Source: Sedimentisphaerales bacterium
GTDB lineage: Bacteria > Planctomycetota > Phycisphaerae > Sedimentisphaerales > Anaerohalosphaeraceae
DNA length: 32,893 nucleotides
Assembly (NCBI GenBank): GCA_016928585.1
Contig: JAFGKL010000132.1
Span: forward strand, 1-32,893
Direction of reading: 5' to 3'
Shown: positions 24,594 through 27,392 of the stretch, piece by piece
Layout: each line of letters opens with the position of its first letter
Position numbering within the stretch: the first letter of the stretch is position 1
Position numbers and translations under genes: made by a program
Notes under the pieces: model-generated
What the model was told of the DNA's origin: nothing
What the model saw: the letters and a program-made list of their open reading frames with translations, nothing else
Database searches by the model: none

Positions 24594-24872
24594 ATGTATT
24601 GGCGTAACAAATTATTTTTCACATTGGTGATTTATTTTACGGGATTTGCCACTGCTATTTATGTGCTTGTTCCCGAAGACGCCCAGGCTATGGAAGTAAG
24701 GGAGAAAACTCTGGGAACGGTTTATTCCGAAAAAAAATTCAACTCACAGGCTTTTGCTCAGAAAACGAGCAACGGATTACACAAATTTATTAGTTTCGCC
24801 GAGGACAAGGCTTCGGAGGTAAAGAGGCGCGTAAAAGCCAAACTTGCCGAAGGACAGGGTGATAGCGATTAA
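24594..24872 (+). CDS. Small protein with N-terminal membrane anchor, unknown
   Basis: 92 residues. A short basic start and a hydrophobic helix (about 7-26) form a signal or anchor; an AQA before Met33 could be a signal-peptidase I site (VPEDAQA). The remaining 60 residues are charged and helical, ending in a Lys/Arg-rich segment and an acidic tail. AAAGGG lies 8 bases before the ATG, and a clear terminator follows the stop. No family recognised. Confidence 0.7.
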   Translation: MYWRNKLFFTLVIYFTGFATAIYVLVPEDAQAMEVREKTLGTVYSEKKFNSQAFAQKTSNGLHKFISFAEDKASEVKRRVKAKLAEGQGDSD

Positions 24873-24900: not shown

Positions 24901-24941
24901 ATGCCGGCTGTGATACGGGGGGATCGCAACCGGCATCTTTT
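24901..24941 (+). terminator. Rho-independent terminator of the small membrane protein gene
   Basis: ATGCCGG (24901-24907) pairs with CCGGCAT (24930-24936), with further pairing inside, and TTTT follows at 24938. It lies 29 bases after the stop. Confidence 0.7.
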
Positions 24942-24950
24942 ATGCGCATT

Positions 24951-24987
24951 AAAAAAAGTGCCGCCGGGAGGAGGATCGGCAGCACTT
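24951..24987. repeat. Hairpin 1 of the GGAG-loop array
   Basis: An 11-position stem with one C-A mismatch (24956-24966 with 24977-24987) closes a 10-nt loop GGAGGAGGAT. Seven A lie before it (24951-24957), so on the minus strand it reads as a stem followed by T7, a terminator. On the plus strand it precedes a strong ribosome binding site at 24991. Confidence 0.8.
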
Positions 24988-25004
24988 AAAAAGGAGGCTT
25001 GGAG

Positions 25005-25079
25005 ATGAAAAACTTATCTTTCCATATGTATAGATGCTTCCGAAAACACTTTGTTGCACAAAAAATAAAAAAAAACTAA
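25005..25079 (+). CDS. Candidate 24-residue basic peptide
   Basis: An ATG at 25005 preceded at 7 bases by AAGGAGG (24991-24997), the strongest Shine-Dalgarno match in the window, opens a 24-codon frame ending in TAA. The peptide is basic (Lys/Arg/His-rich, one Cys, HMYRCFRKHF in the middle). The second copy of the underlying repeat (25268-25313) keeps HIYRC in the same frame with only third-base changes over those five codons, but has a TAG two codons upstream and no start. It may be a true small protein, a leader peptide, or chance within a structured RNA. Confidence 0.4.
   Translation: MKNLSFHMYRCFRKHFVAQKIKKN
25023..25068. repeat. Diverged 46-bp repeat, copy A
   Basis: Aligns without gaps to 25268-25313, with 30 of 46 positions identical by hand count. 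It begins 36 bases after hairpin 1. Confidence 0.65.
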
Positions 25080-25190
25080 AAAAACACAAAAAAGTCGACC
25101 AATTGAGTCAACCCTGCCAAACCCCCAAACTGTCTATTTTACCAGAAACTCTGGTTATAATGCCATTAAAGTCAGAATAAGCCTGCTCAC

Positions 25191-25226
25191 AAAAAAACGT
25201 TGCCGGCAGGAGGGAAGCCGGCAACG
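25191..25226. repeat. Hairpin 2 of the GGAG-loop array
   Basis: A perfect 10-bp stem (25198-25207 with 25217-25226) closes the loop AGGAGGGAA. Seven A precede it (25191-25197), giving T7 on the minus strand. A TATAAT at 25156-25161, preceded by the short palindrome ACCAGA-AAC-TCTGGT, lies just upstream on the plus strand. Confidence 0.8.
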
Positions 25227-25267
25227 CTTAATTAATTATATCGTTTTTGTTTTGAAAGTAGGTTATT

Positions 25268-25313
25268 CACATATACAGATGCCGTGGAGAAGCATGTCAT
25301 ACATAAAAAATAA
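25268..25313. repeat. Diverged 46-bp repeat, copy B
   Basis: Partner of 25023-25068, with no gap. It begins 42 bases after hairpin 2, a spacing close to that of copy A. Differences in the first 15 positions are all transitions. Confidence 0.65.
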
Positions 25314-25331
25314 CTTTTTTTCAAAAAATAT

Positions 25332-25369
25332 AAAAAAACGCCGCTAAGAGGAGTTACAGCGGCGTTTTT
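25332..25369 (-). terminator. Hairpin 3 of the array; terminator of the LolA-like gene, possibly bidirectional
   Basis: CGCCGCT (25339-25345) pairs with AGCGGCG (25358-25364) around a loop holding GAGGAG. Minus-strand reading ends in T7 (25332-25338), 35 bases after the stop of the gene at 25404-26705. Plus-strand reading ends in T5. Confidence 0.85.
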
Positions 25370-25403
25370 GGGAGAATGCAATTATACTTTTTATATCTGT
25401 CGT

Positions 25404-26705
25404 TTATCTCAGCGGCATTGCTTCCAGTTCTGCAAGCGCTTCCTCGCTGACGCGTTTAACCGTCAGATCCCCAAAGATAACCATGTATCTGCCGTTATCT
25501 TCACGCCATCTCATCAGAACCGCATCGGGATTTTCGGCAGTAACCCTGTCTCCGTAATAAGCAACGGCTTTATTTTCAGAAGCTAATGTGCTAAAGAAAA
25601 CAGTAGAAAACTCGAGGTTCATACAGCCTTGTCCCGCTTCCTTCATGATATCTTGTTCAGATTTTCCGGCATACATTGTCCCTGCCCCTGATCTTAAAGC
25701 ATTTCCTACCTGATTTGATAATGTCAGAGTCTTTACAGCAAGTGTCTCAGGATATTTCCCATTGAAAAGCTTTGCATAAAAGCGTAAGCCTTCTATAACA
25801 CTTTTTTCATCACCTAAAAACTCTAGCTGATCATCAAGGGTTTTATAGTCTTCCGGGATAACAGGGATAAAATCTTCCTGAGTAAAGTTCATATTCCATT
25901 GAAAGTCGCCTGTAATCGTCTTAGAGAGGAATTCCCCATTTTGATCATAGGTCTCAGCTTCTATTTTAAGCGGCAATTCAGTTGCCGCGTCAACCCATAA
26001 CCTGGCTTCCGTTCTACCGGAATCTTCCGAAATAATAAGATCAGTAGATTCAAAACCAACTACCTTAACACCATCTATATAGCTGGTACCGAGCTCTTTA
26101 TAGGGATTCTCGATGAATCTCTCAATAAAGAGTAATGGGCTGGTACTGTCCTGTCCGGTCTCTTTCAAAGCTTGATTAGCAGCTTCCATAATTTTATCAT
26201 CTAGTTTGATCTCGATGAACAATTTTTGCTCAGGAATAAGGCTTATCATGATCCCTTCAGAGGCCACGACATAATTTTCACCGAAAAGCTTCATGCGACC
26301 GGTTTCTTTATCCGGAGTATAAGTTTTTGATACAAAACCATAATCTTTTGATATCAACATCTGGAATTCCGAATAATCGGACACATCGGCGCTGGTCGTT
26401 TGCACACGATACGCATATGAGTGTATGCCCATAACTTTTTCGAGTACATCGGCCAACGCAATGCTTCCGGTATTCGTCATTAAATTCATCCCGACAAGCA
26501 CCGCTGCTATTATCATAGCCGCTGCCGCGAATTTAGTTACTTTACTGTTCATAATGGTTCTCCATAATAAATTTTGCCGAGAACCGGACACACCAAAGTT
26601 AAGCAGAAGCTTTTTTTCGAGCAGATCGCGATGCCCGTGATCCGGTGCATCGTCAAATTCAATATTCTTTAGATATTGCTCTATATCTTGTTTGTTATCG
26701 TTCAT
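25404..26705 (-). CDS. Membrane-anchored LolA/RseB-like protein paired with an ECF sigma factor
   Basis: 433 residues from the chosen start. The cytoplasmic N-terminus (1-57) is charged, then one membrane helix (about 58-76), then a long extracytoplasmic domain. That domain begins ADVLEKVMGIHSYAYRVQTT and carries repeated strands of the LolA/RseB fold (KLFGENYVVASEG, RLWVDAATELPLKIE). Position directly after the sigma gene (13 bases) and a single-pass topology suggest an anti-sigma factor or its stress-sensing partner; I see no zinc-binding HxxxCxxC motif, so direct sigma binding is unproven. The frame stays open to 26768, but those codons overlap the sigma gene. GAGG lies 7 bases before the ATG at 26705; the ATG at 26711 is too close to it. 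Confidence 0.82.
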   Translation of the reverse strand: MNDNKQDIEQYLKNIEFDDAPDHGHRDLLEKKLLLNFGVSGSRQNLLWRTIMNSKVTKFAAAAMIIAAVLVGMNLMTNTGSIALADVLEKVMGIHSYAYRVQTTSADVSDYSEFQMLISKDYGFVSKTYTPDKETGRMKLFGENYVVASEGIMISLIPEQKLFIEIKLDDKIMEAANQALKETGQDSTSPLLFIERFIENPYKELGTSYIDGVKVVGFESTDLIISEDSGRTEARLWVDAATELPLKIEAETYDQNGEFLSKTITGDFQWNMNFTQEDFIPVIPEDYKTLDDQLEFLGDEKSVIEGLRFYAKLFNGKYPETLAVKTLTLSNQVGNALRSGAGTMYAGKSEQDIMKEAGQGCMNLEFSTVFFSTLASENKAVAYYGDRVTAENPDAVLMRWREDNGRYMVIFGDLTVKRVSEEALAELEAMPLR

Positions 26706-26718
26706 TTTCATACCTCGC

Positions 26719-27291
26719 TTATTGAACAACCGCTCCGGCTGCTTTGAGCTTTTTTCTAAGCTTTTCAAGGCCCCGGTTCAGCTGACTTCGGATAGTGGCT
26801 GGTTTCTGGTCCAGTATTTCGGCAACTTCGGTTAGTTTCATATTTTCAAAAAAACGTAACGCGATGACAGTCTGGTACTTAGGTTTAAGGCTAAGAACTG
26901 CCTTTTTCAAAAGCAGCTTTTTATCCTCTAGATCAACGTCAGCGCTGACGTTCAGGACAAAACCGGAGGAGCAGTTCCGTGCAACCGATTGCATCGCCTC
27001 GGCCCTTCTTACAGAACTTCTAAGATGGTCATTGGCTGCATTGGTCGCGATCCGATACAGCCATCTGCGAAAATCACCAATATCGCCCTTAAAAGTACCC
27101 ATAGAGCTCATAACCTTAAAAAAGACCGTAGAGGTAACATCCTCCGCGACATGTCGGTTAAATAACCTCCGTGAGCAATAGCGAAAAACCTGGTCATAAT
27201 GCATGCGATACAGCTTTGCAAAGGCGGCAGGGTCACTGCACGCTTTCTGCAACAGGATATCCGTTTGGGTTTCGCTGTTCTTCTGGTTCAT
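26719..27291 (-). CDS. ECF-family RNA polymerase sigma factor
   Basis: 190 residues from the chosen start. Region 2 (about 22-90) holds AFAKLYRMHYDQVFRYCSRR, AEDVTSTVFFKVM and FRRWLYRIATNAANDHLR. Region 4 (about 125-182) holds LKPKYQTVIALRFFENMKLTEVA and a helix-turn-helix ending in PATIRSQLNRGLEKLRKKL. It directs RNA polymerase to a small set of stress or envelope promoters. The frame opens at 27330, but that codon lies at the predicted transcript start; the ATG at 27291 has GGAACG six bases upstream and a usual ECF start. It forms an operon with the LolA-like gene. Confidence 0.92.
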   Translation of the reverse strand: MNQKNSETQTDILLQKACSDPAAFAKLYRMHYDQVFRYCSRRLFNRHVAEDVTSTVFFKVMSSMGTFKGDIGDFRRWLYRIATNAANDHLRSSVRRAEAMQSVARNCSSGFVLNVSADVDLEDKKLLLKKAVLSLKPKYQTVIALRFFENMKLTEVAEILDQKPATIRSQLNRGLEKLRKKLKAAGAVVQ

Positions 27292-27334
27292 GTCGTTCCA
27301 TATTAACTTTTTGCTTATTTTAGCTGTCATCGTA

Positions 27335-27363
27335 ATTATAAACGCAGAATATCACAAAACGTT
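27335..27363 (-). promoter_or_regulatory. Promoter of the ECF sigma operon
   Basis: On the minus strand, TATAAT (27335-27340) lies 17 bp from AACGTT (27358-27363). The AAC core of that -35 resembles ECF promoters, which would allow autoregulation; the -10 is housekeeping-like. Confidence 0.45.
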
Positions 27364-27392
27364 GCATTTTTCTCAAAAACTCGCCCTATCCA

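Follow-up and report, generated by a model that had tools for sequence, protein, structure and literature searches.

Three hairpins follow one another behind a sigma-factor operon in the window (the whole 32,893-nucleotide stretch of Sedimentisphaerales DNA analysed here), and they raise the question of which strand carries them and whether they do more than end transcripts. The preliminary description had offered three readings of them, namely a plus-strand RNA presenting GGA loops to CsrA, tandem minus-strand terminators, or a small peptide gene with a decayed copy. We see an even chance that the array consists of short anti-Shine-Dalgarno small RNAs accompanied by a sigma-operon 3′ end of the same design, a function read from the sequence, and these small RNAs are probably stress-linked.

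Organization of the locus

The array sits 3′ of a pair of minus-strand stress-response genes, one encoding an ECF sigma factor (26719–27330) and the other a membrane-anchored protein (25404–26705) whose weak RseB-like match falls just under Pfam's cut-off. On the far side lies a convergent plus-strand gene of 92 amino acids (24594–24872), conserved in 32 of the 39 family genomes, with its own plus-strand terminator (24901–24936), which the sister genome (contig C88, locus L020), the sole same-genus genome searched, retains.

The hairpins occupy positions 24956–24987, 25195–25229 and 25335–25368, each preceded by seven A, at or within a few bases of where they had been described; the span 25198–25226 given earlier for hairpin 2 is the core of the one delimited here. 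On the plus strand, the loops of hairpins 1, 2 and 3 are GGAGGAGGAT, AGGAGGGAA and AGAGGAGTTA, and the AGGAG or GAGG motif reported for them is present, but what matters is its complement, CCUCC. On the minus strand, they read AAGTGCTGCCG-ATCCTCCTCC-CGGCGGCACTT, AAGCGTTGCCGGC-TTCCCTCCT-GCCGGCAACGTTT and AAAACGCCGCTG-TAACTCCTCT-TAGCGGCGTTTT, respectively, each a GC-rich stem followed by a T-run, as in intrinsic (Rho-independent) terminators. Hairpin 3 with its T-run (25328–25368, minus strand, loop UAACUCCUCU) would end the ECF-sigma/RseB-like operon, while hairpins 1 (24951–24987, minus strand, loop AUCCUCCUCC) and 2 (25191–25229, minus strand, loop UUCCCUCCU) would end two short paralogous units, A and B; hairpins 2 and 3 are kept in the sister genome. 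All three terminator loops expose CCUCC or CUCCU on the minus strand, an unpaired C-rich anti-Shine-Dalgarno motif that stays while the stems differ from hairpin to hairpin.

The transcribed strand and the loop motif

The stems of eight hairpins (three from the window, four from the sister locus and one from contig C117 of the same genome) contain 86 Watson-Crick and 10 G-U pairs on the T-run strand and no would-be G-U pair on the other strand, a count that is favoured at stem ends by a stem finder working on the T-run strand; several wobble pairs lie within the stem, two in hairpin B of the sister genome among them. Because of these wobble pairs and the T-runs, the array is likely to be transcribed from the minus strand, and the loops then read in the sense CCUCC, the anti-Shine-Dalgarno letters. 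The earlier reading as tandem minus-strand terminators was right as far as it went.

The same data weigh against a plus-strand RNA whose GGA loops bind CsrA. Although the plus-strand loops read AGGAGG and CsrA is encoded in 31 of the 39 family genomes, including the sister genome, the G-U pairs of the minus strand become C·A mismatches on the plus strand, only hairpin 3 has a plus-strand T-run, and a family-wide small RNA of the same design (see below) carries its T-run on the CCUCC strand. In CsrB/RsmZ-type RNAs the GGA loops are on the strand that is transcribed and folds, whereas in the array the wobble pairs and T-runs favour the opposite strand, and we regard this reading as very improbable. 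A search for csrA, proposed earlier as a check, found the gene in relatives, as stated, but not in the organism's own 73%-complete genome; since CsrA is common in the family, that absence is not the argument against the reading.

In a scan of the window plus 20 further stretches of the same genome (293,571 bases), a CTCC loop on the T-run strand was seen in 3 of 35 terminator-like hairpins, all of them in the array. The corresponding figures were 4 of 15 in the sister genome (192,929 bases), all at the orthologous locus, and 1 of 38 in genome G006 (400,000 bases). The CTCC loops of the array are not due to chance. Being a terminator alone would nevertheless account for the strand and the T-run, and the stem and T-run are on the minus strand in all three hairpins. 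Hairpin 3 might end the operon with hairpins 1 and 2 as back-ups or as leftovers of lost operons, the loop being functionless and shared through common descent or recombination, a reading to which we assign a substantial probability, though one short of even. The persistence of the loop on differing stems and the rarity of CTCC loops elsewhere speak against it, as do two further observations presented below, the conservation of the intergenic stretch and the recurrence of the loop in a covarying small RNA.

The 46-bp block and putative promoters

A 46-bp block reported to align without gaps was confirmed at 25023–25068 (copy A) and 25268–25313 (copy B), both taken on the minus strand: 30 of 46 positions are identical, a level reached by one of 300 dinucleotide shuffles of one side (mean best, 23.8). 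In gapped comparisons from which the hairpins were left out, copy A of the window was matched as well by 47 of 2000 shuffles when compared with copy B of the window, by 6 of 2000 with copy B of the sister genome and by 5 of 2000 with copy A of the sister genome, and window B against sister B by 0 of 2000. Copy A of the sister genome did not differ significantly from shuffles in its likeness to window B (251 of 2000) or to sister B (388 of 2000). A relationship between copies A and B outside the hairpins is probable from these alignments, not overwhelming, and the likeness is modest.

The earlier remark that the repeat goes beyond what terminators explain holds, in that the block lies, in minus orientation, upstream of hairpins 1 and 2, at the place expected for a promoter, and copy A contains an ECF-like one. 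The reference for this is the promoter of the sigma gene itself, TGCAAC-N15-GCGTTTATA (27337–27366, minus strand), which is conserved: the sister genome and G010, from another genus, have the same boxes, and variants occur in members of the order that are less closely related. With AAC and CGT it agrees with the ECF hallmark, AAC at −35 and CGT at −10 (PMC8103513, in part). The putative promoter of unit A, TGCAAC-N15-GCATCTATA (25029–25058, minus strand), has the AAC but CAT where the hallmark has CGT, and the far end of hairpin 1 lies ~70 bases downstream of where it ends; in some sigma-gene promoters from other families within the order, GCATTTATA likewise occupies the CAT/CGT place. Neither copy B, whose promoter-like spacing is weaker (TGTATG-N15-GCATCTGTA), nor copy A of the sister genome fits a promoter well.

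Allowing a spacing of 15 or 16, four sites within two mismatches of the sigma promoter were found in 585,840 strand positions of the own-genome sample: the sigma promoter, block A and two others. Only the sigma promoter and block A lie within two mismatches of TGTAAC-N15/16-GCGTCTATA in that sample, a consensus that is partly circular, the source pattern having been widened to include block A. The widened ECF pattern gave more matches than its reversed control across 39 genomes. Among the ECF-motif sites at 30 other loci, none led to a terminator within 300 nt as block A of the window does. Separately, TGTAAC-N15-GCGTCTATA recurs in genomes G007, G003, G006, G005 and G019, several times before membrane or exported-like frames, and is a candidate for the ECF motif of the family. 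The sigma promoter also lies very near the start codon, an arrangement kept across genera (27337–27366; L020:5417–5446; L103:847–876), and because of this closeness the sigma mRNA may be leaderless.

With its promoter in the 46-bp block, unit A would give a small RNA of ~74 nt (24951–25024, minus strand) with CCUCC in its 5′ part as well as in its loop. Unit B would give one of ~72 nt (25191–25262, minus strand) and has no 5′ CCUCC. Both 5′ ends are predicted. The Shine-Dalgarno sequence and 24-codon frame previously noted in this region belong to the remaining reading, a small peptide gene at 25008–25079 with a decayed copy. The letters are there, a strong AAGGAGG followed by ATG, but the AAGGAGG is the complement of CCUCC in the predicted minus-strand RNA; the frame is not conserved in the sister genome, where copy A lacks the Shine-Dalgarno sequence and has a frame of 8 codons only, and in copy B it differs at 8 codons, every change altering the amino acid. 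A peptide gene is scarcely credible here.

Conservation in the sister genome and beyond

The stretch with copy B and hairpin 3 (25184–25379, minus strand) is 85% identical in the sister genome (L020:3379–3575), above the flanking genes (67% in the upstream gene region and 71% in the sigma region). This is one of the observations that plain terminators do not lead one to expect. Another feature of the sister locus favours them, in that an additional ECF-sigma operon lies between copy A and the 92-amino-acid gene (L020:822–3263) and ends in a hairpin sharing its core, AAAAGCTGTCGG-CCTCCTC-CCGGCAGCTTTT, with the preceding one. Given this common core in adjacent hairpins, such hairpins may act as sites of recombination and could have been exchanged through it. 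The extra operon between them looks as if it had been inserted or lost by recombination between terminators.

Copies in relatives, called for by the preliminary description, were found in the sister genome and in no other genome besides the organism's own in a DNA search with the whole array across 40 genomes, and that search found no second copy of the array in the genome itself. Other low-E matches of the whole array were A-rich or coding and were set aside. No CCTCC hairpin was found 3′ of the conserved 92-amino-acid gene in other genera, and no CCTCC loop 3′ of relatives of the RseB-like gene outside the genus. Nor was a CCTCC-loop hairpin found 3′ of 12 non-sister ECF loci, bar one with the loop TTCCT, and the orthologous sigma operons of other genera end without CCUCC-loop hairpins.

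A model of the seven hairpins from the window and the sister locus (R1) recovered one further strong case in the same genome, on contig C117 behind an LRR-like gene. Beyond the genus its matches were weak; two (L085 and L075) led to the family-wide small RNA described next, and others, being terminators with other loops, were discarded. In the same genome, a CCUCC-loop terminator stands behind an LRR-like gene at L094:1501–1549.

A small RNA of the same design across the family

By itself, the pattern CCTCC...T7 shows no enrichment (own genome, 16 matches and 10 in the reversed control; sister genome, 14 and 24). Folding of 30 pattern matches revealed CCTCC-loop hairpin terminators on contigs C98 of the genome and C38 of the sister genome, which are orthologous as judged by their neighbours. 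A model built from these and two relatives (R2) had matches, many of them weak, in 38 of the 39 genomes of the family when E up to 1 was allowed. The best 30 matches represent one small RNA, with CCUCC repeats in the 5′ part followed by a small hairpin and by a terminator whose loop is mostly CCUCC (L251–L280, e.g. L251:1281–1376 and L264:1501–1588), and dnaA adjoins it in 7 of these 30 loci. At E up to 0.01, a refined model (R3) matched 36 of the 39 genomes in the family and, in the rest of the order, 7 of 109; across the phylum it matched 7 of 294 genomes at E up to 0.001, six of them family members. These counts include the genomes that trained the model. One match outside the order (G179) has no CCTCC and was taken as chance.

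In 26 chosen rows, 95.6% of cells pair, compared with 85.4% in shuffles, both sides change in 9 of 15 pairs, and the covariation is 0.406, a value reached by none of 500 shuffles, against 0.203. In the same rows, CTCCT is present at the 5′ end in 26 of 26 and CCTCC in the terminator loop in 23 of 26 (the exceptions being G015 and both G022 copies), frequencies somewhat inflated because the rows were found with a motif-containing model. G004, G015, G022 and G043 have second copies within ~600 bases, some of which lack the loop motif. In Rfam, 10 loci of this small RNA had no match at gathering level, and in 13 related loci the only such match was a tRNA.

This small RNA resembles the array in its CCUCC-loop terminator, its 5′ CUCCU and, in some genomes, its second copies nearby. 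It differs in having an extra hairpin, the first of its model, which the array lacks, and in lying at another locus. Against R3 the array reached 16.7 bits (E 0.06, copy B) and the sister units 22.1, 21.6 and 17.2 bits; the array appears to be a sibling design of the family small RNA, its membership in R3 not being proven by these scores. The presence of the same loop in a covarying small RNA speaks against plain tandem terminators.

Proposed action and comparison with known systems

On the anti-Shine-Dalgarno reading, RNAs of ~70–80 nt and the 3′ end of the sigma operon would present CCUCC or CUCCU in the terminator loop, the copy A RNA also in its 5′ tail. These RNAs would most likely keep ribosomes off target mRNAs by pairing with their Shine-Dalgarno sequence (AGGAGG), and by virtue of its ECF-like promoter copy A is perhaps the repressive RNA arm of the neighbouring sigma factor's response. 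Here transcription starts, sigma dependence, pairing and targets of the array RNAs are all what we infer. A Shine-Dalgarno-like word precedes the first ATG in 57 of 161 long frames compared with 12 of 161 at a control position, so the organism has targets of the AGGAGG type. Exported proteins with a strong Shine-Dalgarno sequence tended in the same direction as targets in three genomes, significantly in none.

A scan of the window against Rfam gave no gathering-level match. Permissive settings yielded 31 matches in the array, all below threshold and several to small RNAs with C-rich loops, for which the same Shine-Dalgarno-blocking action is described as is proposed for the array. The multicopy LhrC1–5 of Listeria monocytogenes, induced by cell envelope stress, bind the Shine-Dalgarno region of targets through C-rich motifs in loops, a single-stranded stretch and the terminator loop, as demonstrated by experiments including loop mutants (PMC4132741, in part). 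LhrC (RF00616) resembles the array in these C-rich loop motifs, the terminator loop included, but differs in using UCCC, in its two-component system and in its phylum; the array scored 24.2 bits against a gathering threshold of 110. The cuckoo RNAs of Alphaproteobacteria, ar14 (RF02344) and CcsR1–4 (RF02791), carry the motif CCUCCUCCC, as given in the description of RF02791, and CcsR1–4 lie as four copies together behind a stress-sigma promoter (PMC10253847, in part). They differ from the array in being co-transcribed with a DUF1127 gene and processed by RNase E, and the scores (22.1 bits for ar14, gathering 58.8; 17.3 bits for CcsR1, gathering 65.3) were again below threshold. MicA, RybB and MicL of Escherichia coli are translation-repressing small RNAs controlled by an envelope-stress ECF sigma factor (PMC8103513, in part). 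By comparison, the sigma dependence of the array is a prediction. To our knowledge, MicA, RybB and MicL form no CCUCC-loop array beside a sigma operon.

As far as the Rfam and literature searches go, the principle of C-rich anti-Shine-Dalgarno loops is already known, while the small RNA family and the phylum are new to it. Small RNAs of Planctomycetes appear hardly described in the literature searched, where no paper was found to mention small RNA together with Sedimentisphaerales. The analysis yields a small RNA that has covariation support and spans an entire taxonomic family, together with a locus at which an ECF sigma factor may control anti-Shine-Dalgarno repressors of its own; if true, small RNAs with C-rich loops extend to a phylum remote from those in which they are known. 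The design shared by the array and the conserved family small RNA suggests a little-known layer of translation control. We put forward only tentatively, as a reading less likely than not, that the lineage uses a whole class of anti-Shine-Dalgarno hairpin RNAs, comprising the family-wide small RNA and locus-specific arrays. In such arrays, an ECF sigma operon would supply repressor RNAs of its own, transcribed from promoters next to it or formed by the 3′ end of the operon mRNA, and the regulatory element would be the terminator hairpin itself.

Two minor observations concern other hairpins. In the sister genome, a CCUCC-loop hairpin with a T-run, divergent from a Fur-like gene (L219, minus strand, ~355–315), is possibly a further small RNA. 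Terminators at L074, L077 and L080 share an AUCC/CAUCCAC loop across three genera.
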